This document shows positions 1 through 12,800 of a stretch of DNA of 12,826 nucleotides, in pieces. The position numbers and the translations under genes are program-made. The notes under the pieces are model-generated. The model ran no database searches. It had not been told where the DNA came from and saw only the letters and a list, made by a program, of their open reading frames with translations. The stretch's first letter is position 1; each line of letters starts with the position of its first letter. Origin of the DNA: a bacterium (GTDB lineage: Bacteria > JALSQH01). Where the stretch lies: contig JALSQH010000114.1 in NCBI GenBank assembly GCA_026985515.1, positions 1-12,826 on the forward strand. Reading direction: 5' to 3'.

Positions 1-2467
1 GATTGTCAACCTCCAGATCCCCATCTATGTCAAACCGTCCTCCCATGGGTAATGATATATCATTTATCTTCAACGCTCCAGGAAAATTTACACTGTAAGA
101 AAGAGTCTTTATCAAAAGCAATGCAAGGGGTTTAACCTGAGAATTTATAAAATAATTCACAGGATGAACTTCTGTCTTCCCTGTCCTCACCCCATAACAT
201 CGGTGGTTTTCGCTGTCATACAGGTCCAGCTTACTCAATTCTACAAGGTCAGGCACTTTCACCTCCAATATTTTACTATCCATAAATTTCTCCTTCTTCT
301 CACCGTATGGAGGATCATCAATCAATTCTGCCTTCAGAATATACCTCCTCGCTACAGGCCCGGTTATGTAAGTGAACTCGCATCTCTTTTCACCAGAAGG
401 CATCTCTACACAGCATTCACCCTTATAGTTTAACCTGCAGATAAGCTTTCTGTAAAATTTTACCCCTGTATTTTGCAAAGGTATTCTGTAACTGAGCCTG
501 TTACCACCATAGTATTCTTTTTTAAGATAATTAAAATATAAATTATCACCATCCGCTATTACTATGCCACCAAAATAACCCGAAGTCTCGTCATCACTTC
601 CCATATTGAGCGCGTGGAAATGACCCCCGTTGCACAGTGCTTCCTCCTGCAATGTATTACCCGAACACTCTACAGGAGTGTAGGTTATTTCCACCCTTTT
701 ACCATTCAGAGCGCCATCTCCTGCTCCCGTAATCTCATCTGTTACACTTACACTGAAAGGTACCATCATATCCTGAAGATGATAACCTGCCCCATTTTTA
801 AAACCATTGGGAGCTTTATCATACCACCAGGGATATAATTCCCATACTGGCCCCCTCTTTGGGGGAAAGCTGCCAAATCCATGTACTTTTATCGACAATT
901 TCAATTTCTTAGGTGTGACAATAACATCTTCTGGTTTTGCGGCTTCAAACATTGTGTAGGTTTCCATCTCCCCTTTGTACCAGATTTCATTGTACCATCG
1001 CGTTTTCCCGTTAATATTAACATAGCCTGAATCTTCTCTATCTATCCACCTGCACCCGCTTCCACTCTTGTCTGCTCCTTTACTTTCAATATCCAGAATA
1101 ATATAGTTTTCCCATTTAATATCCTCGGTTATCTCTCCCGGAAAGTAAAAATCAACTATAGCTTCCCCCGGGACTGTGTATTCCTGGCTGCACCTTTTGC
1201 CATCAGGAGGAGTGAGACCAGTAGAAATGGTTCTTTTTATAACTCTGGGTTCCCGGATTATCTTTAGAATTTTTCCCCTTGCAGTGCACTTGTATGAATC
1301 GTTACCTGATCCGTTTATTCCAATGATGCCAAACCCAATTAAAGAGAGATCTTCAGAAATTCCTGAACATTTTTCTCCCCCTACACCTTCTAAAGTTCCT
1401 GTGAAATGATAAGGTGTGCCTGTATAAAAAACCTTCACCAGAAAATGGATCATACTCGCTTTTGAAGGTAGCTTTTTAATCCTGTAAACATACTTCAATT
1501 TCCCATCTGACTCTGCAAGACTGTACCAGGCAACACTCCACTTTCTGTGATCTTTATCCCACAGATACACCACATTGTTGTATGCATACCTTGGAAAGTT
1601 CCAGCTTCTTCCCAGATTACTAAAAGGTGCATTCTCAAAATTTATATTTCCTCTAATCAGTTTTTCATGAAAATTGAATATTATTCTCTCACCTCTGCTT
1701 CCACGCAACCATCTACCTGAGCCTGGCCTCCATTTCAGCATAAGTAATCCATAAGCTGTTCCATGCAATGGATCAACATCATAATCCAGATCCGCAAGCA
1801 TCTGATAAATGTAATCACCTGTATTTGGAATCAGGTTAAGCAGATTATTACCATAATGAAAATACCATTTCCCCGGACTCAGTGTGTGGATAAGATGTAA
1901 TTCCTGAAAATGTCTGGTAAAAATAAAATAACCTGTCTTACCCTCTTTTAAATTGAAGCTTCCTTCTATCTGAGGAGCAAAGTGCAATTTTTCTAATTCC
2001 TGGGAAGAAGATGTTTCAAAATCATTATTTTCCCCAGTTGTAAATAAGAACTTCTTTCCATACTTACAGCTGACAAGATTTCCGATCCTTATACATAATC
2101 TGTAATAAACAGAAAGTGGTTCAGTAGCTGAAGAATCATAATCAAGATTGCCCTTGAAAAGGTTATCTGAAACCTGATCCACATTTATCCTGTACCATGT
2201 ACCACCTTCCCCAAGTTCTTCAAGCCAGAACTCATCTACTCTTTCAAGAAGATCTCTCTGAATGATGAACATAATTTCTCCACCCGGTAACAATGGTGAA
2301 AGATCCTGGATCATTATTGAAGAAGCAAGTCGTGCTTCGCGGGGAGTAAGATAAGTGTTTCCTGCAATCCCGCTGTTTACCCCATTGCCCTGACCACAGG
2401 AGGCAAGTAAAAAGGTCACAACTATTAAAGAAATGTATAAATTTTTGAGTTTTACCCTTCCGAACAT
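1..2467 (-). CDS. large secreted lipoprotein, C-terminus beyond the window edge
   Basis: This reading frame stays open from an ATG at 2467 to the left edge (822 complete codons, no stop), so the gene is partial at its 3' end. The N-terminus is a clear lipoprotein signal: Lys/Arg at residues 4-8, a hydrophobic stretch at 10-22, then lipobox L-A-S-Cys24. Gly follows the cysteine, so there is no Asp+2 retention signal, and outer-membrane or surface placement is inferred. The mature part has many cysteines, as in extracytoplasmic proteins. Residues about 515-660 look like a bacterial Ig-like domain (beta-rich, with a GGHFHA motif at 614-619). Residues about 765-822 carry HPVNY and INDISLP-x-GG-x-FDIDGD, which I recall from uncharacterised lipoproteins in which this segment precedes a His/Asp-rich possible metallopeptidase-like part. 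No Shine-Dalgarno lies before the ATG, and the promoter sits immediately upstream. The reading frame is certain; the function is unknown. Confidence 0.85.
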   Translation of the reverse strand, partial: MFGRVKLKNLYISLIVVTFLLASCGQGNGVNSGIAGNTYLTPREARLASSIMIQDLSPLLPGGEIMFIIQRDLLERVDEFWLEELGEGGTWYRINVDQVSDNLFKGNLDYDSSATEPLSVYYRLCIRIGNLVSCKYGKKFLFTTGENNDFETSSSQELEKLHFAPQIEGSFNLKEGKTGYFIFTRHFQELHLIHTLSPGKWYFHYGNNLLNLIPNTGDYIYQMLADLDYDVDPLHGTAYGLLMLKWRPGSGRWLRGSRGERIIFNFHEKLIRGNINFENAPFSNLGRSWNFPRYAYNNVVYLWDKDHRKWSVAWYSLAESDGKLKYVYRIKKLPSKASMIHFLVKVFYTGTPYHFTGTLEGVGGEKCSGISEDLSLIGFGIIGINGSGNDSYKCTARGKILKIIREPRVIKRTISTGLTPPDGKRCSQEYTVPGEAIVDFYFPGEITEDIKWENYIILDIESKGADKSGSGCRWIDREDSGYVNINGKTRWYNEIWYKGEMETYTMFEAAKPEDVIVTPKKLKLSIKVHGFGSFPPKRGPVWELYPWWYDKAPNGFKNGAGYHLQDMMVPFSVSVTDEITGAGDGALNGKRVEITYTPVECSGNTLQEEALCNGGHFHALNMGSDDETSGYFGGIVIADGDNLYFNYLKKEYYGGNRLSYRIPLQNTGVKFYRKLICRLNYKGECCVEMPSGEKRCEFTYITGPVARRYILKAELIDDPPYGEKKEKFMDSKILEVKVPDLVELSKLDLYDSENHRCYGVRTGKTEVHPVNYFINSQVKPLALLLIKTLSYSVNFPGALKINDISLPMGGRFDIDGDLEVDN

Positions 2468-2469
2468 TA

Positions 2470-2505
2470 CATACCAATTAAATCATAAATTTACTAAAAA
2501 GTCAA
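2470..2505 (-). promoter_or_regulatory. sigma70-type promoter of the 2467 lipoprotein gene
   Basis: On the minus strand a TTGACT -35 box (2505-2500) is separated by exactly 17 nt from a TTTAAT -10 box (2482-2477). Each box matches the consensus at 5 of 6 positions, and TG one base before the -10 gives an extended -10. Counting 6-7 nt from the -10 puts the transcription start near 2470-2471, only about 3 nt before the ATG at 2467. The mRNA would then be essentially leaderless, which agrees with the lack of a Shine-Dalgarno sequence. The promoter is inferred from sequence alone. Confidence 0.6.
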
Positions 2506-2657
2506 GTTATCGCTTTGCCCGAAATTCTCAAATAGAAATCTGGTTAATCCACCATTTGCCTTTTTACCCCTATAAATAAGCTTCTCACCGGCCATCACTC
2601 AGTAGGAGACGGCAGAATACAGGGTATGGTTTTTAAAATAATAAATTATAGTTACCC

Positions 2658-2679
2658 AAAATCTCCTATTTGAGATTTT
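2658..2679. repeat. perfect 8-bp inverted repeat with 6-nt loop
   Basis: The arms AAAATCTC (2658-2665) and GAGATTTT (2672-2679) are exact reverse complements around the loop CTATTT. The stem has only three G/C pairs per arm and no proper U-tract beyond it. It is therefore a weak candidate for a bidirectional terminator behind the 2890 stop, and fits equally well an element end or operator. The 9-mer formed by the loop and the start of the right arm recurs inverted at 2527-2535. Confidence 0.55.
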
Positions 2680-2736
2680 AGGTGCAAGAAGGATTGAGTT
2701 TCCAGGGAAAGAGAAGAAAGAATGGAGGAGATAAAA

Positions 2737-2849
2737 ATGAGGCTACACAAGCATATCAAATGGAGCAGACTATGAAATGGAGAAGCATATGGGTGAAAAA
2801 GGGAGTAAAAGAAGATTCAATTTTGAATAAAAGGGGAGTAAGAGGATAG
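2737..2849 (+). other. possible tiny ORF pair with strong RBS (speculative)
   Basis: A consensus Shine-Dalgarno GGAGGAG (2724-2730) stands 6 nt before an ATG at 2737, opening a 12-codon frame (2737-2775). Its TGA overlaps a second ATG (2772) as ATGA, and the second frame runs 25 codons to a TAG at 2847-2849. The second peptide is very basic and begins with Lys-Trp-Arg. The overlap mimics translational coupling, but the region is purine-rich and repetitive, so both the Shine-Dalgarno and the frames could be chance or the frameshifted remains of an older gene. No promoter is evident. Confidence 0.15.
2749..2791 (+). repeat. short imperfect tandem repeat, 17-nt period
   Basis: AAATGGAG occurs at 2758-2765 and again at 2775-2782, each followed by a 9-nt block ending in TATG. 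AAGCATAT flanks the array at 2749-2756 and 2783-2790. The two full 17-nt units agree at 14 of 17 positions. The array falls inside the possible tiny ORF pair and does not keep a reading frame, because 17 is not a multiple of 3. Confidence 0.5.
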
Positions 2850-2889
2850 ATTACTCAATTATATCAGAATCAGAGTCCTGCAAAGGATG

Positions 2890-4272
2890 TCACCAGTCCA
2901 GCTTGCATCCAAACTTCAAAGATCCTATTTTTCTCCAGATAAACACCTTATTTACGGAATCGTAGTTCCCCCTGTACAATCTGTAAGTGTAAGTAAATGC
3001 ACTTTTACACCCTCCCATATGGTAATAAAACCACTGGATATCATCCAGATTAATAGCTGTGGAAATTCCTCCAATTGCGTAAAGAGAATCACCATACTCG
3101 GTTATTCCACCAAAATTTCTTTCGAGAGACAACCAGCCTAGGGGGAGTTTCAATTTAATCCGCCTGTTTGCAGAATCACTCTCAAAGTTTTCAAAATACC
3201 AGGTACTTGCAAAGAAGTCAGGCTCAACAAAATTCTCACCCACATATTCCCTCGAGAAAGTTAAAAGCACCCCTTCCTTCATAGGAAAAAGACCAGATAA
3301 TGTTAATTTCATGTGATCCTTCATATTTTGATTTCCTGATGTGACTTCAAAATTGTAAAAAATACCTTTATCCGTCTTAACATTCACAAGCACCACAGAG
3401 ACTGACAAAGATGTCGCAGTAAGCTCACCGGCAAAAAACGGATACGAAAAAAACACCTTTCTATATTTTCCATCAAAACTTCCAAGGAGAGAGAAATTAC
3501 ATTTAAATTTATTCGCCTCCGTACTGGTTATTGACAGTCTGTAAACCTTTACCTTATCAGATGAATATGCAAAATAATAGGGTACGTCTGTAAGTGGATC
3601 CATGTACATACCAGCTCTGACAAATTGCTCTGGAAATCCACAGTCCACACTCACCCCGTCAGATACAGCCCTCACTTTCCATTCTTCATTTTCTTCACAG
3701 AAAGAGATATCATCCCAGTCCCATATGTACCTGCTACAGGGAAAATAAAACAATTCGTCACCAAATCTCAATAAATACTTATCCTCAAAGATTCCTCGCG
3801 ACATCTCTGGATTCATTTTCTTACCGACAAACATTGTCCCATCCATGGACATCACAGAATAGGTTAGAGGCTGGTCAATCCTGCACCCCTTCCAGAATGT
3901 CACAGCAAATTCATCTGAAGGATAGGAAAGGGGGCTAATTATGTTAAAAAAGTAAAATTTATCTATAACACATTCATCCTTAAACTCAATCTCCTTAAAA
4001 AAATTTAAGCCTGAATCACCTACCCTGTAAAAACTTACTTTACTTGAGCATCTATCCCTTCCAATAACATTTTTCCTTGCAAAATATTCAACCTTTGCAA
4101 GGTAGATTCCATCTTTTCTTCTCACAAAAAAAGCTGTTTGACCTGGAGTTTCTTCTGATTCATATATAGGACAATAATGATCACAGGCATTAAAGAAGAA
4201 AAAGGAGATAATCAGAAAAAGGAAAATAATTCTTTTCCACCAGTTCCTTTTCTCAAAGATCTTTTCAACCAT
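2890..4272 (-). CDS. cysteine-rich lipoprotein of unknown function (460 aa)
   Basis: The frame could be extended upstream to 4413, but that would overlap the MFS gene and add 47 residues with no signal character. Starting at ATG 4272 puts a signal peptide right at the N-terminus: Lys/Arg through residue 14, hydrophobic 15-27, then Phe-Asn-Ala-Cys30. Asn/Phe in the lipobox are not ideal. Asp follows Cys30, which in enterobacteria retains lipoproteins in the inner membrane; whether that holds here is unknown. The mature chain is rich in aromatics, predicted beta-strand and about ten further cysteines, with one kelch-like YAIGG near residue 410, so a beta-propeller or other extracytoplasmic binding fold is possible. 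I recognise no family. It lies 53 nt after the MFS stop and is probably co-transcribed, with no clear Shine-Dalgarno. Confidence 0.75.
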   Translation of the reverse strand: MVEKIFEKRNWWKRIIFLFLIISFFFFNACDHYCPIYESEETPGQTAFFVRRKDGIYLAKVEYFARKNVIGRDRCSSKVSFYRVGDSGLNFFKEIEFKDECVIDKFYFFNIISPLSYPSDEFAVTFWKGCRIDQPLTYSVMSMDGTMFVGKKMNPEMSRGIFEDKYLLRFGDELFYFPCSRYIWDWDDISFCEENEEWKVRAVSDGVSVDCGFPEQFVRAGMYMDPLTDVPYYFAYSSDKVKVYRLSITSTEANKFKCNFSLLGSFDGKYRKVFFSYPFFAGELTATSLSVSVVLVNVKTDKGIFYNFEVTSGNQNMKDHMKLTLSGLFPMKEGVLLTFSREYVGENFVEPDFFASTWYFENFESDSANRRIKLKLPLGWLSLERNFGGITEYGDSLYAIGGISTAINLDDIQWFYYHMGGCKSAFTYTYRLYRGNYDSVNKVFIWRKIGSLKFGCKLDW

Positions 4273-4325
4273 CTTTTTCGCATTTATGCAACAAATGTGC
4301 CATTTGATCCTTAAGCCTGTAAATT

Positions 4326-5486
4326 TTACACAGCCAGTAGGATCCCGAAAAAGGCAACCATCCCGGCAATTCCTCCGAAGAGAAAGGGTGCCGAAGGCCC
4401 GAGGAGATCCCACAGTAACCCGGCAAGTAAAGAGGCAGGAAGAAGGCCTATGCCTTCAATGGCAGAATGCAAACCAAGAATGGTAGCTCTTCTATCCTCT
4501 GGAGCGAGGTCAGACACAAAGGCCCTTGTAACACCCTCGGTGGCACCTTTGTAAACTCCATAGATTGCCATTGAAATCCAGATCAGCTTCGGAAAAAGGG
4601 CGATCATCAGGTAAACTAATCCATAAATGAAAAATCCAGCGGAGATTACATACTTCCTGTTTATCTTATCAGACAAATAACCGGCAGGATATGAAACAAC
4701 TGCTTCAACAATATTGTATACAACATAGAGCAGAATTATTTCACCCACTCCAAGACCTATATCTTTCTCCGATGCTCTGAGAAAGATAAACTGATTTGAA
4801 GAATTACCCATGGTGAAAATGAATAGAAAGAGGAAATACAACTTTAACTTCAGAGGAAGTTCCCTGAATGAGGCAAGGTTTATTCTTCTTTTAATTCTTC
4901 CCCTCCCGGTTTCAATGGAAAAGAAAAGGATCAACACGCTCAAAAGGGCCGGTATCAAACTTATAAAAATCAGCTTCCTGAAAAGTGCTATCTCACCAAC
5001 CTTCTCCCCGGTCAGATAGGTAACTATGAAATACGCAGAGAGAGACCCCAGCACCGCTCCGGCAGTATCCAGACTCCGGTGAATGCCAAAGGCTCTGCCT
5101 CTCTCCTCCTCCCCGATTGATTCTGCTATCATCGCATCTCTGGGTGCCCCTCTTATGCCCTTACCAAATCTATCTGTAACCCTTCCGGCAAAAATCATGC
5201 TCCAGCTGTGTGCGAGATAAAAGAGCAACTTGCCCAGAAAGGAGAGGGTATAACCACCTATTGCAACAGGTTTCCTCTTTCCAACCCTGTCAGCAAGGGC
5301 TCCAGAGAAAACCTTAAGGAGAGACGCCGATGACTCCGCCACTCCCTCTATAATTCCCAGGATACCCGGACCGCCTCCGAGGGCTTTTACATAGAGGGAT
5401 ATAATCGGGTAAACCATTTCGGAACTTACATCAGTGAAAAAAGATGTGAAACCTGTAATCCAGATATTCAATTTCCTGCTCTTCAT
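4326..5486 (-). CDS. major facilitator superfamily (MFS) transporter
   Basis: This is an inner-membrane MFS permease of 386 residues, the usual 12-helix size. The N-terminal half opens with a TGFTSFFTDVSSEMVYPI-like helix, followed by the loop motif GALADRVGKRKP (MFS motif A). The segment RGAPRDAMIAESIGEEERG and the following HRSLDTAGAVLG are typical of a widespread uncharacterised permease subfamily. A second motif-A copy, GYLSDKINRKY, starts the C-terminal half. ATG 5486 is chosen over an in-frame TTG at 5510 because AAGGAG (5493-5498) stands exactly 6 nt before it. The substrate is unknown; drug or metabolite efflux is a guess from family membership. It diverges from the TerB-like gene and probably leads a two-gene unit with the downstream lipoprotein. 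Confidence 0.88.
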   Translation of the reverse strand: MKSRKLNIWITGFTSFFTDVSSEMVYPIISLYVKALGGGPGILGIIEGVAESSASLLKVFSGALADRVGKRKPVAIGGYTLSFLGKLLFYLAHSWSMIFAGRVTDRFGKGIRGAPRDAMIAESIGEEERGRAFGIHRSLDTAGAVLGSLSAYFIVTYLTGEKVGEIALFRKLIFISLIPALLSVLILFFSIETGRGRIKRRINLASFRELPLKLKLYFLFLFIFTMGNSSNQFIFLRASEKDIGLGVGEIILLYVVYNIVEAVVSYPAGYLSDKINRKYVISAGFFIYGLVYLMIALFPKLIWISMAIYGVYKGATEGVTRAFVSDLAPEDRRATILGLHSAIEGIGLLPASLLAGLLWDLLGPSAPFLFGGIAGMVAFFGILLAV

Positions 5487-5539: not shown

Positions 5540-5560
5540 GATTGAAGGAGTATGTCCAGT

Positions 5561-6148
5561 ATGGAAAAGGGGACAGGATGGAGAGAAGCTTCTCCCGAGG
5601 AGAAAAAAGCCTATATTGAGCTTTTAGTATGGATAGTGACAGCTGATGGAAAATTTCCACTGGAACAGCGACAACTTGTGGTTCAGCTCCTTGACAGACT
5701 TGAAATTCCGCTGGGTGAAGAGAAAAGAGTATTAAAAGAGTTTTTTTCAATGCCCTCTGAAGATGGCATAAAAAATTCCATTAAAAAACTGAAAGAATCC
5801 TCCTTGAGATTTTCCGCCCTGGCAGATGTTATCACCCTTGCCCTTGCCGATGACCAGGTCACAGAAGAGGAGAAAAAAGTTATAAAAAAGCTTGCCTCAG
5901 AGATGAATATTACTGAAAAGCAGTTTCAGAGTATATATCTGACAATAGTGGAAGCAAAAAGAATAATGAAAGAGAAGATAAACGGGGAAAGAAAAGAACA
6001 TCTCCTTAAAAATCTCAACAATCCTCTCTTTGCAATCGGGATTCCGGTACTTCTTTCGATAATTGCAAACAGCGCCCTTGGTGGATCAGCTTTCCTTCTC
6101 TGGCTTGGCGTGGAAACCGTTTCGGTGCTGAAGAAACTCTTCAGATAA
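5561..6148 (+). CDS. TerB-like domain protein with hydrophobic C-terminal tail
   Basis: This 195-residue protein has the two-part acidic signature of the TerB/DjlA-like helical fold: TADGKFPLEQRQ around residues 27-38 and LADDQVTEEEKK around 95-106. In TerB proteins such Asp/Glu clusters bind metal. Residues about 154-190 form one or two hydrophobic helices, so it is probably membrane-tethered. TerB domains occur in tellurite/stress-response and membrane-associated signalling proteins, but the role here is unknown. ATG 5561 is preferred over ATG 5552 because AAGGAG (5545-5550) would be only 1 nt from the latter and 10 nt from the former. It is the only substantial plus-strand gene in the window and ends exactly against the 3' end of the Enzyme I gene. 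Confidence 0.75.
   Translation: MEKGTGWREASPEEKKAYIELLVWIVTADGKFPLEQRQLVVQLLDRLEIPLGEEKRVLKEFFSMPSEDGIKNSIKKLKESSLRFSALADVITLALADDQVTEEEKKVIKKLASEMNITEKQFQSIYLTIVEAKRIMKEKINGERKEHLLKNLNNPLFAIGIPVLLSIIANSALGGSAFLLWLGVETVSVLKKLFR
6128..6144. repeat. 7-bp hairpin at the convergent gene ends
   Basis: CTGAAGA (6128-6134) and TCTTCAG (6138-6144) pair perfectly around AAC, just before the TerB-like stop (6146-6148) and beyond the Enzyme I stop (6149-6151). Neither strand has a U-tract directly after it, so it is not a canonical intrinsic terminator. It encodes Leu-Lys-Lys-Leu-Phe-Arg in the TerB-like frame, so the symmetry may partly be coincidental. Confidence 0.4.
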
Positions 6149-7909
6149 TTACTCCAGATCTTTCAAAAAAGGAAGTTTTTTTTCAATGTAATCCAACAAA
6201 ACATTCTCAACTTTCTTCGCTGTATCCTGGAGAAGAAGTTTCTGAACCAGTTCCCTTGCTTCCTTTGAATCTAATTCCCTCACAACCTTTTTCACCTTTA
6301 AAATTGAGTGTGGAATCATGCTCAGACTCGTATACCCAAGTCCCAGCAAAACAACTGTGAAGACTGGATCACCCGCAGCCTCGCCACAGATCCCCACTTC
6401 TATTCCCTCTTTCCTTGCACTTTCAGCAATCTGGTTTAAAAGACGGAGAATGGCAGGATGTAAAGGCTCAAAGAGATACTCCACATGCTCATTTGTCCTG
6501 TCCACAGCAAGGGTATACTGAACAAGGTCATTTGTTCCAACACTGAAAAAATCCACCTCCCTTGCAAGCATATCAGCAATAATGGCAGCAGAGGGAACCT
6601 CAATCATGGCACCAATGGGAACATGCGACGCAAAACTCTTACCCTCCTCTTCCAGTTCCCTGTGTACTTCCTTTATGAGCTTTTTCACCCTTCTCACTTC
6701 CCACACGCCAGAAACCATCGGAAACATTATCCTCAGATCTCCATACTCTGCCGCTCTGTACAGAGCTTTCAGCTGATTTTTGAAAATCTCCCTGTATTGC
6801 AGAGCCAGCCTTACCCCTCTCAACCCAAGGGCTGGGTTGTCTTCCTGATAGAGAGTAAAAGGGGTCTTTTTATCCGCACCCAGATCAAATGTCCTTATGA
6901 TAACGGGAAGAGGAGCCATCTTTTCGAGTACACCTTTATAAATCTCAAACTGCTCATTTTCAGGTGGTGGATCATCTCTGTTAAGGAAAAGGAACTCCGT
7001 CCTGAAAAGACCTATTCCTTCAGCTTTGTGAGAAATAACAGCGGGTATTTCCTCCACAAAATCCACATTCGCAAGGAGTGAGATCTTGGTACCATCCTTT
7101 GTAACAGATGGAACATCAATGTAGCTCCTCAGTTCGCGGTATCTCCTCTCATACTCCTCCCGCAGAGCAGCGTACTTTTCAACCATGTGGCGGGTGGGAT
7201 TGAGAATAACAACTCCATGGATCCCATCAACTATTACCTCATCTCCCTCCTCAGCATGATCCAGAAATCCCTCAACACCCACCACTGCAGGAAGTTCCAG
7301 GGTTCTTATTGTGATTGATGTATGAGAATTTTTACCACCTATTTCAACTATGAGGCCCTTCACCCCCGCTTTGTGAAGTTTCACAACTTCCAGAGGGGAA
7401 AGATCATGTGCTGCAAGAATATCCCTCCCGCTCTCACCAATATCTTCCTCTCTTTCTCCCCGGAGATTCTTCACCAGTCTGTTTGCCACAAAATAGAGAT
7501 CCTCTTTCCTTTCCCTGATGTAAGGATCATTAATCTTTTCAAAAAATTTTTCCATTTCCTTCACAACTTTCTCAACGGCCCATTCAGCGTTGATCTGCTC
7601 TTCCACGATGTGATTCTTGATCTTGCTCATGAGAGTTGCATCATTGAGAAACATCTTCTGGATTTCAAGAATAGAAAACACTTCCTTCTGAAGATCTGGA
7701 TCAATCCTTGAGAGTATCTCCTCTATCTGTTTCTTGGAAGCAAGGAGAGCCCTGTCAAATCTGCGTAATTCGTATCCAATATATGGTTTCAAAATCTGAT
7801 ACTTGGGAATCTCCACCTTGCTTCTGGTGGAAATGGAAAGAGTACCAATAGCTATTCCTGGATAAACACCTATGCCTTCAAAAGTGAGTTCCTTTTTCTT
7901 TCGCTTCAT
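6149..7909 (-). CDS. ptsI: PTS Enzyme I (phosphoenolpyruvate-protein phosphotransferase)
   Basis: Enzyme I takes phosphate from phosphoenolpyruvate in the cytoplasm and passes it to HPr. The length (586 aa) is normal. The N-terminal swivelling domain carries the active-site motif GGKNSHTSI with His196 as phospho-acceptor, followed by ELPAVVG. The TIM-barrel part has GIGLFRTEFLFLN (Arg303, PEP-phosphate binding), FFSVGTNDLVQYTLAVDR, and GICGEAAGDP with the catalytic acid Cys508. The start ATG overlaps the HPr stop (TAATG), with GAGGAG (7912-7917) immediately upstream. It is the last gene of the operon and meets the convergent TerB-like gene with no spacer. All key residues are present. Confidence 0.97.
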   Translation of the reverse strand: MKRKKKELTFEGIGVYPGIAIGTLSISTRSKVEIPKYQILKPYIGYELRRFDRALLASKKQIEEILSRIDPDLQKEVFSILEIQKMFLNDATLMSKIKNHIVEEQINAEWAVEKVVKEMEKFFEKINDPYIRERKEDLYFVANRLVKNLRGEREEDIGESGRDILAAHDLSPLEVVKLHKAGVKGLIVEIGGKNSHTSITIRTLELPAVVGVEGFLDHAEEGDEVIVDGIHGVVILNPTRHMVEKYAALREEYERRYRELRSYIDVPSVTKDGTKISLLANVDFVEEIPAVISHKAEGIGLFRTEFLFLNRDDPPPENEQFEIYKGVLEKMAPLPVIIRTFDLGADKKTPFTLYQEDNPALGLRGVRLALQYREIFKNQLKALYRAAEYGDLRIMFPMVSGVWEVRRVKKLIKEVHRELEEEGKSFASHVPIGAMIEVPSAAIIADMLAREVDFFSVGTNDLVQYTLAVDRTNEHVEYLFEPLHPAILRLLNQIAESARKEGIEVGICGEAAGDPVFTVVLLGLGYTSLSMIPHSILKVKKVVRELDSKEARELVQKLLLQDTAKKVENVLLDYIEKKLPFLKDLE

Positions 7910-8205
7910 TACTCCTCTTCACCAAATCTATTTTCAACAAGTTCAACAAGTGCCTCCACTGCCTCATCAGCATCTGGACCAATGGCAACAATCCTCACCT
8001 CTGTTCCCTTTGCAGCTCCAAGGGTAAGCAAACCAAGTATGCTCTTCCCGTTTGCTTCCATATCATCTTTGATCACGAGGATCTCACTCTGAAACTTCTC
8101 TGCAGTTTTAACAAAACTGCTGGCTGCCCGGGCGTGAAAACCCAGTTTATTTACGATTTCCACAGATTTTTCAACCCTTTTCACATCTTCAATATTTCTG
8201 GCCAT
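7909..8205 (-). CDS. ptsH: phosphocarrier protein HPr
   Basis: HPr shuttles phosphate from Enzyme I to the EIIA proteins. In this 98-residue version the catalytic motif is KLGFHARAAS with His24, equivalent to His15 of the well-studied proteins. The regulatory serine lies in GKSILGLLTLGAAKG (Ser55, equivalent to Ser46), the target of HPr kinase, whose gene is in this same operon. Relative to typical HPr it has about nine extra N-terminal residues and an acidic tail. The ATG at 8205 is supported by GGAG 7 nt upstream, inside the EIID coding region, giving a 25-nt overlap. Both phosphorylation sites are intact, so metabolic control through Ser-phosphorylation is expected. Confidence 0.96.
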   Translation of the reverse strand: MARNIEDVKRVEKSVEIVNKLGFHARAASSFVKTAEKFQSEILVIKDDMEANGKSILGLLTLGAAKGTEVRIVAIGPDADEAVEALVELVENRFGEEE

Positions 8206-8942
8206 AACCTGTCTCCAGTAATTAGTATAATGTAATAGAAAAGTATTACAAAATCACCCGGAAAAATAACCATAAAGAGTCCAATTACAAATCCTGCAAA
8301 GACCCCTTCAAAGGAAAAAAACTGATGTACATACGACCAGAAGATCAGGTATGAGAATAGGGATGCTGAAAGCACACTATTAACTGTAAAAAGTATCTTT
8401 GCAATTCTGTAGGGATTTCTATTTCCTATCATGTCAACAATTTCCACCCCATATCTGTAACCAAGGAAAAAACCTCTTATTCTGAGAAAAAATGAGAAGG
8501 AATTGTAAATAACAACGAAAACTATCAAACCAGCCACAGGTGAGATTAAAACTCCAATCAAAATTCCCGCAAAGGCAGACAGGGGCCTGAAACCTGCCCA
8601 TCCGTAAGTATCACCAATGGCTCCAAGTGTACTCATCATACGCACCTTGAAAGAGCTTATAATATCTTCTTTTATTTTTCCCCCAGCATACTCCATTTCC
8701 ATTTTCACCAGAGCACCCAGCATAATCGGGAAAAAGAGGGGATTGGTGTTAAAGTACTCCTCGTAGAATTTCTTTCTCTGAAAATACTTCTCCCTTTCAT
8801 TTTTGTAGAGATGGTCCAGGAGAGGAAGAAGGGTGTAGAGAAGACCGATACTCTGCAATCGCTCAAAATTCCACCACGCCTGGAGAAAAAAACTTCTCCA
8901 AATTATTTTTAAAAGAATTCCACCAACCTTTACCATATCCAT
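8181..8942 (-). CDS. mannose-family PTS membrane subunit EIID
   Basis: EIID is the second integral membrane component of mannose/fructose/sorbose-family PTS permeases and acts with EIIC. The N-terminal motif RSFFLQAWWNFERLQSIG and the following LLYTLLPLL are diagnostic. GAIGDTYGWAGFRPLSA in the middle corresponds to the conserved G-x-GD-x-x-W-x-x-RP segment. Several hydrophobic helices follow, ending in a long membrane hairpin. The length (253 aa) is near the family norm of about 270-300, slightly short. ATG 8942 overlaps the EIIC end by 13 nt; a second ATG two codons in (8936) is equally possible, and no clear Shine-Dalgarno separates them. The transported sugar cannot be told from the sequence. 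Confidence 0.93.
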   Translation of the reverse strand: MDMVKVGGILLKIIWRSFFLQAWWNFERLQSIGLLYTLLPLLDHLYKNEREKYFQRKKFYEEYFNTNPLFFPIMLGALVKMEMEYAGGKIKEDIISSFKVRMMSTLGAIGDTYGWAGFRPLSAFAGILIGVLISPVAGLIVFVVIYNSFSFFLRIRGFFLGYRYGVEIVDMIGNRNPYRIAKILFTVNSVLSASLFSYLIFWSYVHQFFSFEGVFAGFVIGLFMVIFPGDFVILFYYIILITGDRLWPEILKM

Positions 8943-9634
8943 TGCAACCAGTGTATAAAAAGGAAAAGAAAAAAAGCAATCAAAAATGTAAGAATATACA
9001 GAGAGGTTAGTCTCTGTTTTTTAACACTTGAAAGATACGAAAAAAACAGAATAGAGGGGATTCCACTCAAAAAAATAAGGCCAGGTGAAGTGTTGAGAGA
9101 TAGAGACTTCAAAAAAAGAGCAAGTGGAAAAGCAAAAACCAGTACAGCAGTCAAGTAAATAAAGTGAACAACAAAATTTATGGAAAGAGCATAATAGAGG
9201 CTTCTGCCTATCAGTTCTTCATCTTCACCACCTGCTTCTATCCACCGTGCTATGCGAAGATTTATCTCTCTCTGGACCATATCAACCCTCTTACCCAGAT
9301 AGCCATTCACTATTCCCCAGAAGATACTCCAGCTCAGGGCATCAGAGCTGGGGATTCCAAATCTGATGGAAACGAGGTAAATAATAACTGCCGAGAAAAA
9401 GGCAAGCACCTCATGTGGTGGCACAGTGTTGCCCACGGGTAGTTTGCTGAGCCAAAGAACCTCGAAAAAGATGCCCAGCACCAGCATTTCATTCATTCTG
9501 CCAAAAATCAGTCCAAGAATTACTGAAGCTGGAAAAGGTCTCAAAATTGAGAACTGAAATGCCGCGTATCTTTCAACCCCTCCAGCAGATCCGAGAATAA
9601 GAAGAAGAATTGTTTTGGCAACAGATTCAATCAT
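8930..9634 (-). CDS. mannose-family PTS membrane subunit EIIC
   Basis: EIIC forms the sugar channel of mannose-family PTS permeases. The 234-residue protein is hydrophobic throughout. It has the family pattern of a short Gly-rich motif (LGLIFGRMNEMLVLG) and a helix ending in LWLSKLPVGNTVPPHEVLA, matching the conserved P-x-G-x-x-x-PP loop. It is somewhat shorter than the usual 250-270 residues. The ATG at 9634 lies inside the end of the EIIB gene (ATGATTGA, 8-nt overlap), so translation is probably coupled; only a weak AAGG lies upstream. Together with EIIB and EIID it makes a complete permease. Substrate unknown. Confidence 0.9.
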   Translation of the reverse strand: MIESVAKTILLLILGSAGGVERYAAFQFSILRPFPASVILGLIFGRMNEMLVLGIFFEVLWLSKLPVGNTVPPHEVLAFFSAVIIYLVSIRFGIPSSDALSWSIFWGIVNGYLGKRVDMVQREINLRIARWIEAGGEDEELIGRSLYYALSINFVVHFIYLTAVLVFAFPLALFLKSLSLNTSPGLIFLSGIPSILFFSYLSSVKKQRLTSLYILTFLIAFFLFLFIHWLQWIW

Positions 9635-10124
9635 CTATGATTTCTTTACCTTTTTCTCCCGGTATGTTTCTCAACTCAACTTTCTTTCCTTCCCTGGAAA
9701 GGATTTTTAACTTCTCCAGTTCCTCCAAACTGCATGTGAAAAAGCTGGTGAGATTAACCACATTCTCTCCTCTTTTATGATAATTACCAACATTCACAAA
9801 CTCTACCGGCACCAGTGAAGCAACCTTAACAAGATCATCAACATTGTTAACCAGTATCAGAACATTTTTCCCGTTTGATACATCAGAAATACTTGGGATG
9901 CGGGAAGTATCAATGAAATGAAGAGAAACATCTGGAGGTACTGAAAGAGACATGATTTTCTGTTGCATTGGGTCAGAACTGATTCTGTCACTTACAACGA
10001 AAATCTCATCAATGGATAGAAAAGGCACCCACCCCTGAACAACCTGACCATGGATCAGCCTGTCATCCAGCCTGAGGTAAAATTTTTTCTTTTTTTCTCC
10101 CTTCTTCCAGACGGAAAATCTCAT
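9627..10124 (-). CDS. mannose-family PTS subunit EIIB
   Basis: EIIB receives phosphate from the mannose-type EIIA and hands it to sugar bound by EIIC/EIID. The hallmark motif RLDDRLIHGQVVQGW is present, with phospho-acceptor His25. The length (165 aa) is typical. The first 14 residues form a very basic extension (Lys/Arg-rich) before the family core begins. Its ATG overlaps the EIIA stop as ATGA, with GAAGG 7 nt upstream. The basic stretch is encoded by a long A-rich run, which is a place where sequencing or replication slippage could occur, but the frame is intact. Confidence 0.94.
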   Translation of the reverse strand: MRFSVWKKGEKKKKFYLRLDDRLIHGQVVQGWVPFLSIDEIFVVSDRISSDPMQQKIMSLSVPPDVSLHFIDTSRIPSISDVSNGKNVLILVNNVDDLVKVASLVPVEFVNVGNYHKRGENVVNLTSFFTCSLEELEKLKILSREGKKVELRNIPGEKGKEIIDD

Positions 10125-10531
10125 GCAAGTGCCTTCGAAGCAATTTTCACATTATCTTTTCCATAGTCGGCAAGATACAGGACAACTTCGTGCAGTGGCT
10201 TTTTTTCCTCCTCCATGCTCATCTTAAGTGCCTTTATAAGCATGGGAAGATTGAATCCTGTTATTACCTCAACCTTTCCCGGTTTCACAAAACCAAAAGA
10301 TATGTTGGATGGGGTTCCTCCAAACATATCGGTAAAAATGAGGACCCTTCTGTATTTTTTCAAAAACTTATTCACCAGTCTTTCAAACTGCTCCTGAATT
10401 TCATCAATATTTTTCCCAAATTCTACCGAAATTGCCTCAACTGTGTCAATTTCACCAACGATTGTTTTAACAGTTTCGACGGCTTCTTTTCCAAAATTCC
10501 CGTGCGTGGCAACAATAATTCCGAAGCTCAT
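10121..10531 (-). CDS. mannose-family PTS subunit EIIA
   Basis: This small cytoplasmic domain accepts phosphate from HPr and passes it to EIIB. The motif IIVATHGNFGKE gives phospho-acceptor His10, and TDMFGGTPSN is the conserved active-site Asp loop. The length of 136 residues is that of a free-standing EIIA domain, with EIIB as a separate gene immediately downstream rather than fused as in E. coli ManX. The ATG overlaps the RapZ stop (ATGA), and a GGAGGAG run directly before it gives a strong but closely spaced ribosome binding site. Confidence 0.95.
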   Translation of the reverse strand: MSFGIIVATHGNFGKEAVETVKTIVGEIDTVEAISVEFGKNIDEIQEQFERLVNKFLKKYRRVLIFTDMFGGTPSNISFGFVKPGKVEVITGFNLPMLIKALKMSMEEEKKPLHEVVLYLADYGKDNVKIASKALA

Positions 10532-11388
10532 AACTCCTCCAGATCTCTGTGGGTTACACTAACATTATATCCCTCTTCCATTAGCATTCCAGCAATAACC
10601 TCAGCAACATAAACTGACCTGTGCCTTCCACCAGTGCAACCTATTGATATGACGGGATTCCATATGGGTGAATCCCTTGATTCAAGGAAAAATTTTATGT
10701 AGGAGTAGGTTGATTCAATAAATGCATTGACTTCCTCCTTTGAGGAAAGAAACTCCTTCACCTCCCTGTCCTTCCCTGTTTTATCCTTCAATTCAGGTAC
10801 AAAGTAGGGATTTGGCAAGACCCGGGCGTTAAACACCAGATCAGAATTCTCAGGAATCCCCCTTGAGAAACCAAAGGAGATTATTGTGATGTATATGGCG
10901 CTGGCTGATCTGTTCAATCTTTCGGCAATTTCTCTGCTCAACCTGTGAATATCAAAGGAAGATGTGTCAATAACTTCCGTGGCCTTCTCCCTTACTGGTT
11001 CAAGATACTTCTGCTCAAGCTTAATTATCTTCTTCAAATCAGCAACTTGTCCCAGTGGATGAATTCTCCTTGCCTCCTTAAATCTTCTTACTATAACATC
11101 CACCTTAGCTGTAAGGTAAAAAATACGGTAATTTATCTTTCTCAGTTCCAGTTCTTTCAATATTTTGTTTATCTCAGATAGAAACGGCCTTTCCCTGACA
11201 TCTATTCCAAGAGCAAGTTTGTCATACGGGATTTCACTCTTTTCCATAAGATCAATGAAAACAGGTATCAAAGAAAGGGGGAGGTTATCAACAGTGTAGT
11301 ACTGAAGATCCTGAAGCGCCTTCAGCGCCGTGGTTTTACCTGCTCCTGATAGTCCGGTGACAATTATTACTTCTTTAATCTTGCTCAC
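10528..11388 (-). CDS. rapZ: RapZ/YvcJ family P-loop adaptor protein
   Basis: RapZ-family proteins have an N-terminal ATP/GTP-binding fold and a C-terminal domain that in E. coli binds glucosamine-6-phosphate and small RNAs for RNase E; in Bacillus the homologue YvcJ is a nucleotide-binding protein. Here Walker A is GLSGAGKT (residues 12-19), followed by YYTVDNLPLSLIP. The C-terminal half has FGFSRGIPENSDLVFNAR, LPNPYFVPEL and CTGGRHRSV, all diagnostic. At 286 residues it is full length. It starts with GTG at 11388, overlapping the hprK stop (GTGA), with GGAGG 7 nt upstream. Family assignment is firm. Whether it controls amino-sugar synthesis here is unknown, since no RNase or small RNA target is visible. 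Confidence 0.96.
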   Translation of the reverse strand: MSKIKEVIIVTGLSGAGKTTALKALQDLQYYTVDNLPLSLIPVFIDLMEKSEIPYDKLALGIDVRERPFLSEINKILKELELRKINYRIFYLTAKVDVIVRRFKEARRIHPLGQVADLKKIIKLEQKYLEPVREKATEVIDTSSFDIHRLSREIAERLNRSASAIYITIISFGFSRGIPENSDLVFNARVLPNPYFVPELKDKTGKDREVKEFLSSKEEVNAFIESTYSYIKFFLESRDSPIWNPVISIGCTGGRHRSVYVAEVIAGMLMEEGYNVSVTHRDLEEL

Positions 11389-12335
11389 TCAATTTCCTCC
11401 CTGAATCTCCCCTGCAATGCTCTATCAATGTTTTCCTTAAATTCTTTTGCAGAATCTATTCCCTTCAACTTCAGCAGATAGTTCCTCGCAGCAACTTCAA
11501 TTAGAGCTGGCAACTGCCTTCCAGGCGTGACGGGTAATCTCACCAGTGGAACTCTGACCCCCATTATTTCGTAATAGTTTTCCTCAAAGCCGAGTCTATC
11601 ATAATCAGTTTCATCCTCCCACCTGATAAGCTCTATAACAAGTTCAATTCTTTTGGTATCCCTTATTGAGGAAATTCCGAAAAGATCCTTGATGTTGATT
11701 ATACCCAGGCCCCTTATTTCCACGATGTGTTTTAGAAGTTCTGTGGATCTTCCTATAAGCACCCTTGGAGACTTCTTAATAATTTCAACCATATCATCTG
11801 CCACAAAACGGTGGTTCCTCATTATCAATGAAAGGGACAATTCACTTTTTCCTATTCCACTCTTACCGATGATGAGAACCCCCACACCAAAAACATCGAG
11901 AAGGTTTCCATGAATAACCACCTTCTCTGCAAGAAGTTCCGCAAGGAGATCTTCAATCTGGATTATAAATGTGGAACTCTGCATGGAAGTTCTAAGAAGG
12001 GGAATTTTCTCTTTACACGCTTTCCTCTTGAGAACCTGGGGTATGTTGAGACCCTTTGTTACGATGATACAGCTGATTGGTATCTCCTCAAGGAATTTGA
12101 CAGCCTTTCTCTTCTTGTAGGGAGAGAGCTGATTCAGATATGTTATTTCAGTTTCCCCAAAAATCTGAACTCTTTCAGGATATACATGATATGTGAATCC
12201 CGTCAGAGCAAGACCGGGTTTCTGGATTCTGGGATGTTCGATCAGTTTCTCTTTGAGACGATGGTTGCAGATGACCTCTAAATCAATGCCTCTTTTGAGA
12301 GCTTCATTTAGCAGTTCATCTACACTAATTTTCAT
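11385..12335 (-). CDS. hprK: HPr kinase/phosphorylase
   Basis: HprK phosphorylates HPr on the regulatory serine (Ser55 of the HPr gene in this operon) and also removes that phosphate. The 316-residue length is standard. The C-terminal catalytic part begins near residue 135 and contains IHGN (His142), Walker A GKSGIGKS (157-164), FVADDMVEI (Asp180-Asp181) and the HprK signature VEIRGLGIINIKDLFG. The N-terminal domain is present and intact. It begins 3 nt after the PtsN-type stop with no visible Shine-Dalgarno, so translation probably depends on ribosomes finishing the upstream gene. All catalytic residues seem conserved, so the protein should be active. Confidence 0.97.
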   Translation of the reverse strand: MKISVDELLNEALKRGIDLEVICNHRLKEKLIEHPRIQKPGLALTGFTYHVYPERVQIFGETEITYLNQLSPYKKRKAVKFLEEIPISCIIVTKGLNIPQVLKRKACKEKIPLLRTSMQSSTFIIQIEDLLAELLAEKVVIHGNLLDVFGVGVLIIGKSGIGKSELSLSLIMRNHRFVADDMVEIIKKSPRVLIGRSTELLKHIVEIRGLGIINIKDLFGISSIRDTKRIELVIELIRWEDETDYDRLGFEENYYEIMGVRVPLVRLPVTPGRQLPALIEVAARNYLLKLKGIDSAKEFKENIDRALQGRFREEIE

Positions 12336-12338
12336 GTG

Positions 12339-12800
12339 TTACAGTTTTGAGTCTTCTTCTCTGAGTACATTAACAATCTCCTCAGCAGAAGAAGCGTTCA
12401 TTAATTTTTCTCTAACTTCGCTCTTTTTCAGAATCCTGCTAATCTTGGCAAGAGCCTGAAGATGAACTGCGGGCTTTGATTCAGGAGCCAAAAGAAGAAA
12501 AAAGAGATGCACAGGTTTCCCATCCATGGCATCAAAGTCAACACCTCTTCTGGACCTCCCAAAGGCGAGGTAAATTCTCTCACCATTTTTCAACTTACCG
12601 TGCGGAATTGCCACACCATTTCCGATTCCTGTGCTCCCAAGACTTTCCCTTTCAAGGAGGAGATTGTAGATTTCCTCACCATTTAGTTCTGGAAATTTCT
12701 TCGAAACCAGGCTGGATAACTCTCTGATTACCCCCTCCTTGGAATCCCCCTTGAGATCAGGTTCTACCAGATCCTCATCAATATACTCGCTTATTCGCAT
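12339..12800 (-). CDS. ptsN: PTS EIIA of the fructose/nitrogen (PtsN) type
   Basis: This is an EIIA domain of the fructose/mannitol/nitrogen family, 153 residues, as in PtsN. The active-site motif GIGNGVAIPHGK puts the phospho-acceptor at His67. The following FGRSRRGVDFDAMDGKPVHLFFLLLAP and HLQALAKISRIL are characteristic. No EIIB/EIIC of the fructose type is present here, so a regulatory rather than transport role is likely, as known for PtsN in proteobacteria. ATG 12800 is supported by GAGGAG (12807-12812) 6 nt upstream. It is the first gene of the operon inside the window; in related layouts a ribosome hibernation factor and rpoN precede it, but only 26 nt remain here. Confidence 0.94.
   Translation of the reverse strand: MRISEYIDEDLVEPDLKGDSKEGVIRELSSLVSKKFPELNGEEIYNLLLERESLGSTGIGNGVAIPHGKLKNGERIYLAFGRSRRGVDFDAMDGKPVHLFFLLLAPESKPAVHLQALAKISRILKKSEVREKLMNASSAEEIVNVLREEDSKL

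Follow-up and report, generated by a model that had tools for sequence, protein, structure and literature searches.

The gene that runs off the edge of the window (the whole stretch of DNA analyzed, 12,826 bases) probably encodes an exported, lipid-anchored, Ig-bearing protein with a C-terminal M74-like zinc metallopeptidase of the LAS group, most likely one that cuts peptidoglycan; here we infer both catalysis and substrate. The protein belongs to a family found in several phyla, whose genes nearly always precede a gene for an apparently exported partner protein.

The Lipoprotein at the Contig Edge

The window is the entire contig G000:C114, meaning that the open reading frame listed first in Table 1 is truly truncated. 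Its residues 1–24, MFGRVKLKNLYISLIVVTFLLASC, constitute a lipoprotein-type signal peptide with a lipobox, which was judged by eye against the consensus [LVI][ASTVI][GAS]C. The first-pass annotation had described a lipoprotein open at the edge and carrying HPVNY and INDISLP-x-GG-x-FDIDGD, and we found the motifs where it had put them: HPVNY spans residues 768–772 (window 166–152) and INDISLPMGG residues 801–810 (window 67–38), followed by an Arg and then by FDIDGD at residues 812–817 (window 34–17).

Table 1. Features of the edge gene (positions in the window)
Feature	Position	Strand	Basis or remark
Lipoprotein ORF, 822 codons from ATG, 3' end missing	2..2467	minus	no stop before window edge
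Lipobox LASC, residues 21–24, behind basic/hydrophobic leader	2396..2407	minus	direct reading
NGGHFH (GGHxH motif of the relatives' Ig-like domain), residues 613–618	614..631	minus	motif match only
Ig-like domain end and linker (ILEVKVPDL... to VR ahead of TGKT)	185..409	minus	profile alignment
Start of predicted M74-like LAS peptidase domain, TGKTEVHPVNY ... INDISLPMGGRFDIDGD	2..184	minus	profile alignment; MepA equivalence

With a profile built without the window, the last 72 residues scored 43.0 bits, against 4.5 bits for the best of 5000 shuffles, so the motif match in the tail is not due to chance. A 15-row profile, from which the window was again excluded, matched window positions 17–409 of the minus strand with an E value of 9.8e-16; with profile positions 95 onward (profile A5), the alignment takes in the closing part of the Ig-like domain, then the linker and the opening part of the peptidase domain.

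The edge protein, of whose peptidase domain just the opening part can be read, had no matches in Pfam or NCBIfam, and the PHROGs search yielded weak matches only, all in other parts of the protein. Single-sequence searches of the PDB with the window tail and with the tail of a same-genome paralogue (see below) returned no match. No fold was identified for the first ~570 residues, and the term Ig-like applies only to the last domain before the motif. An Ig-like stalk had been suggested for this protein. That suggestion stands insofar as an Ig-like domain is predicted before the peptidase domain of a relative (L041) and its end is aligned in the window; no other Ig-like part was recognized.

The window stops ahead of every zinc ligand, the zinc-binding half being beyond the contig. 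A search of the same genome for the sequence beyond position 1, using the edge DNA, revealed no overlapping contig, and the rest of the gene was found in none of the other contigs of the assembly by edge-DNA overlap, motif pattern or profile. The motif-pattern search of the assembly hit the paralogue and three further places; the only one of these close to the start of a contig (C80:127) proved to be a short His/Gly-rich frame unlike the family and was rejected. Since the missing half was not found elsewhere in the assembly, we infer it from the relatives: in its intact form, the edge protein would carry H-x-x-H-[R]-x-G-x-x-x-D plus a terminal His.

The remainder of the window holds other genes. 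Upstream of the edge gene (2890–4413, minus strand) is a second lipoprotein-like ORF, with a lipobox-like stretch FFFNAC, for which no family was found. A TerB-domain protein with a hydrophobic C-terminus (E 1.3e-9) is encoded on the opposite strand (5552–6148, plus), and a complete PTS block, all on one strand, occupies positions 6149–12800 (minus): EI, HPr, mannose-type EIID, EIIC, EIIB and EIIA, RapZ, HPr kinase and an EIIA-2 protein.

Relatives and Extent of the Family

With the window tail as the query, a relative turned up in a distant genome (E 8.2e-6), and a further copy in the same genome gave a weak match. This paralogue (G000:C112, hereafter the C112 copy), which shares ~22% identity with the window copy over 465 residues, has an intact C-terminus reading NDISLPMGG...HLSHRRGTGIDI...SIHVEF-stop, with GHLSHRRGTGIDI between NDISLPMGG and EGSIHVEF-stop. 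At its locus (L018), a lipoprotein-like frame (324–1160, plus strand) extends, in a different reading frame, into the beginning of the peptidase frame (1145–3127, plus strand). This first frame could belong to a lipoprotein gene of its own, or a frameshift could have split it off as the N-terminus of the peptidase.

When four relatives, but not the window, were combined into a profile, it identified 17 places in 11 of the 386 genomes in the survey, the window among them (E 1.5e-6). Named genomes, scanned in turn, yielded further loci in Deltaproteobacteria, Nitrospirae, Bdellovibrionales, Elusimicrobia, Acidobacteria (Thermoanaerobaculia and Bryobacterales), Poribacteria and Lindowbacteria, and two viral contigs also hold relatives; annotated phage and plasmid records contained none.

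An H-x6-D zinc motif follows NDxSLxxGG, or a close variant of it, in 31 of the 32 representatives examined, the exception (L045) having its frame broken just past HSSHRK. Every representative with H-x6-D, save L050, has a further His at the end. The first-pass annotation had proposed that proteins with NDxSLxxGGxFD continue with a His-rich segment of the type H-x-x-HR-x-G-x-x-DV, and such a continuation, HxxHRxGxxxD followed by a last His, is indeed present in the C112 copy and in nearly all of the ~30 relatives, across several phyla.

Assignment to the LAS Group

Comparison of a profile of 15 Ig-plus-tail sequences with all PDB sequences gave Escherichia coli MepA (1TZP/1U10) as the top match (E 0.0012), followed by Sonic and Indian Hedgehog (E 0.8–1.3), which also belong to the LAS group. 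The alignment places NDmSLpwGGlF on GDMGMPAGGRF of MepA and HsgHrlGtsvDi on HASHQTGLDVDI of MepA, that is, HxxHRxGxxxD on HASHQTGLDVD. The zinc ligands of MepA are H113, D120 and H211, and in this alignment they are matched by the family's second His, its Asp and its final His.

The Pfam family Peptidase_M74 (PF03411) recurs among the members, mostly below its curated cut-off of 25 bits: most matching relatives score 11.7–17.1 bits, while L047 (25.0 bits) and L052 (24.9 bits) are at the line. As the cut-off is generally missed, we term the family M74-like rather than M74. The genome carrying the window contains no M74 enzyme detectable with Pfam.

The structure predicted by AlphaFold2 for relative L041 (pTM 0.80, mean pLDDT 86) comprises an Ig-like domain and a LAS-type domain. 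The latter resembles MepA with Z = 10.4 (122 residues, 2.9 Å) and Hedgehog with Z = 10.8, whereas the Ig-like domain resembles those of GH2 enzymes and intimin, with Z about 10–11. The link to LAS peptidases made in the earlier reading is thus borne out by the top PDB sequence match and by the predicted fold of a relative and, judging from profile alignment and modeling, the family is an M74-like subfamily with a predicted LAS fold.

Active-Site Variants and the GGHxH Motif

Complete members nearly always retain all three putative zinc ligands. The C-terminal end is variable. An H-x-H is found there, as in MepA, in 16 of 30 members; the other 14 lack the first His and have a single one. In 8 of those 14, including the C112 copy, a Glu lies four residues ahead of the last His (E-x-x-x-H). 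VanX has E-x-x-H where other LAS enzymes have H-x-H (PMC3927764), implying that a Glu-bearing motif can replace H-x-H in LAS enzymes. By analogy, our guess would be that the Glu at position –4 stands in for the H-x-H base in this family.

Nearly every member in which the region is readable has, in its Ig-like domain, GGHxH or a GGH whose second His comes a few residues later; in many cases RPxG comes next. The corresponding NGGHFH of the window was matched by eye and lies outside the profile-aligned stretch. The GGHxH motif could represent a second metal site or an active-site contact.

The Partner Gene

The gene immediately downstream of the C112 copy encodes a product of 444 residues that has a leader sequence and whose homologues adjoin the peptidase gene in most loci. 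In the genome survey, a partner match was present just downstream, on the same contig, at 16 of the 16 peptidase places (window excluded). Eight partner-positive genomes had no peptidase match; seven of them match the C-terminal FIMAH part only, and in the eighth, G317, the partner stands alone, with no adjacent peptidase. One Elusimicrobia locus (L048, 661–5267, plus strand) holds two tandem peptidase–partner cassettes.

Several partners reach the cut-off of the Pfam family FIMAH (PF22888) through their C-terminal helices. The partner model (pTM 0.79) consists of an N-terminal beta-sandwich, with modest structural matches only, and a C-terminal helical bundle similar (Z = 15.5) to part of a multi-domain GH92 mannosidase. 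We found no second partner gene in the assembly carrying the window, and the stretch downstream of the window's gene lies beyond the contig. Viral contig L039 seemed to encode a fused partner, but this candidate was discarded as too weak, being a 24-residue match of 4 bits followed by the contig end. In the literature searched, no paper with the phrase "FIMAH domain" was found, nor anything relevant on M74 enzymes with Ig-like lipoproteins.

Proposed Function and Alternatives

In the mechanism that we propose, one zinc would be held by the second His together with the Asp and the terminal His, and would activate a water molecule for the cleavage of a peptide bond, most likely in the stem or cross-link peptides of peptidoglycan. 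The apparently exported partner, with its beta-sandwich and predicted four-helix FIMAH domain, would probably work with the peptidase, as an anchor, a targeting subunit or a restraining subunit.

Known M74 enzymes such as MepA are zinc D,D-endopeptidases that cut the D-Ala-mDAP bond in peptidoglycan (PMC6403190), and by analogy murein is the most likely substrate of the family. One viral relative (L040, 2930–4417, plus strand) is an endolysin that combines a phage lysozyme, PG_binding_1 and the M74-like domain in one protein, a fusion that ties its branch to peptidoglycan. No peptidoglycan-binding domain was detected in the members examined apart from L040. The N-terminal modules recognized in other members were MopE metal-binding repeats, beta-propeller repeats and a weak TIG match, modules that would also be compatible with a surface protein acting on something else.

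The domain might have kept the LAS fold but lost catalysis, serving as a zinc-containing module for peptide or glycan recognition in the manner of Hedgehog N-domains. Hedgehog is the second sequence match and among the best structural groups for the catalytic domain, and almost half of the members (14 of 30) lack the first His of H-x-H. Nonetheless, we consider this explanation rather unlikely, given that nearly every complete member retains the three ligands, that H-x-H is complete in 16, and that the Glu at –4 in 8 of the 14 looks like a replacement of the base, for which VanX offers a precedent (PMC3927764), and not like decay. Alternatively, an active peptidase could trim its partner, or another surface protein, instead of murein. 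The constant position of the partner gene after the peptidase gene (16 of 16) and the apparent export of both products would fit such a role, which we nevertheless regard as distinctly unlikely: the M74 enzymes so far known act as peptidoglycan endopeptidases (PMC6403190), the viral relative L040 is fused to a lysozyme and a PG-binding domain, and the G317 partner has no peptidase beside it.

A further explanation concerns only the window copy, which could be a decayed or partnerless paralogue, with the C112 copy as the working one. Both the continuation of the gene and a second partner are absent from an assembly that is 97.6% complete, but a contig break can account for the absent continuation without any decay. 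Moreover, the 822 codons are open, the family motifs are intact as far as the sequence can be read, and the 15-row profile scores the window copy better than the C112 copy (E 9.8e-16 vs 3.5e-7), making decay very improbable. Our preferred reading of the edge protein remains that of a lipid-anchored, probable peptidoglycan peptidase.

A broader and more speculative proposal, which we consider possible but less likely than not, is that of a yet undescribed, exported, two-protein system for cutting peptidoglycan, spread over several phyla. It would comprise a LAS zinc peptidase placed behind an Ig domain that has a conserved His cluster (GGHxH, possibly a second metal site or an active-site latch), a dedicated beta-sandwich/FIMAH partner, and a branch in which Glu takes the place of the His base of H-x-H.

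At the level of annotation, an unannotated ORF becomes a testable zinc peptidase family for which neither Pfam nor NCBIfam offers a dedicated model, and the peptidase is linked to a partner gene that annotation leaves unconnected. If the activity is as proposed, several little-studied phyla would turn out to possess a cell-wall-cutting enzyme that escapes standard searches.

Comparison with Known Systems

The partner shares its C-terminal helices with the FIMAH domain (PF22888) but, unlike plain FIMAH, adds an N-terminal beta-sandwich that has no Pfam family, and its gene is tied to the peptidase gene. The Ig domain of L041 is structurally like the bacterial Ig-like domains of intimin/invasin and GH2 proteins; in contrast to these, the family's domain carries the conserved GGHxH...RPxG and lies ahead of a peptidase domain. 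With the Hedgehog N-terminal domain and M15 peptidases, the family has in common the H-x6-D and the last His, although the sequence matches are weak and cover the zinc-site half only, excluding the NDxSLxxGG segment.

By sequence, the closest parallel is to MepA (penicillin-insensitive murein endopeptidase, MEROPS M74), in which the order GDMGMPAGGRF...HxxHxxGxxxD...HxH corresponds to NDxSLxxGGxF...HxxHRxGxxxD...(H)xH of the family, with the same predicted fold. Unlike in MepA, however, the peptidase domain of the family follows an Ig-like domain, contains an inserted FD(I)xxxW between the GG and the HxxH motif, and is much shorter past the Asp, with nearly half of the members devoid of H-x-H.
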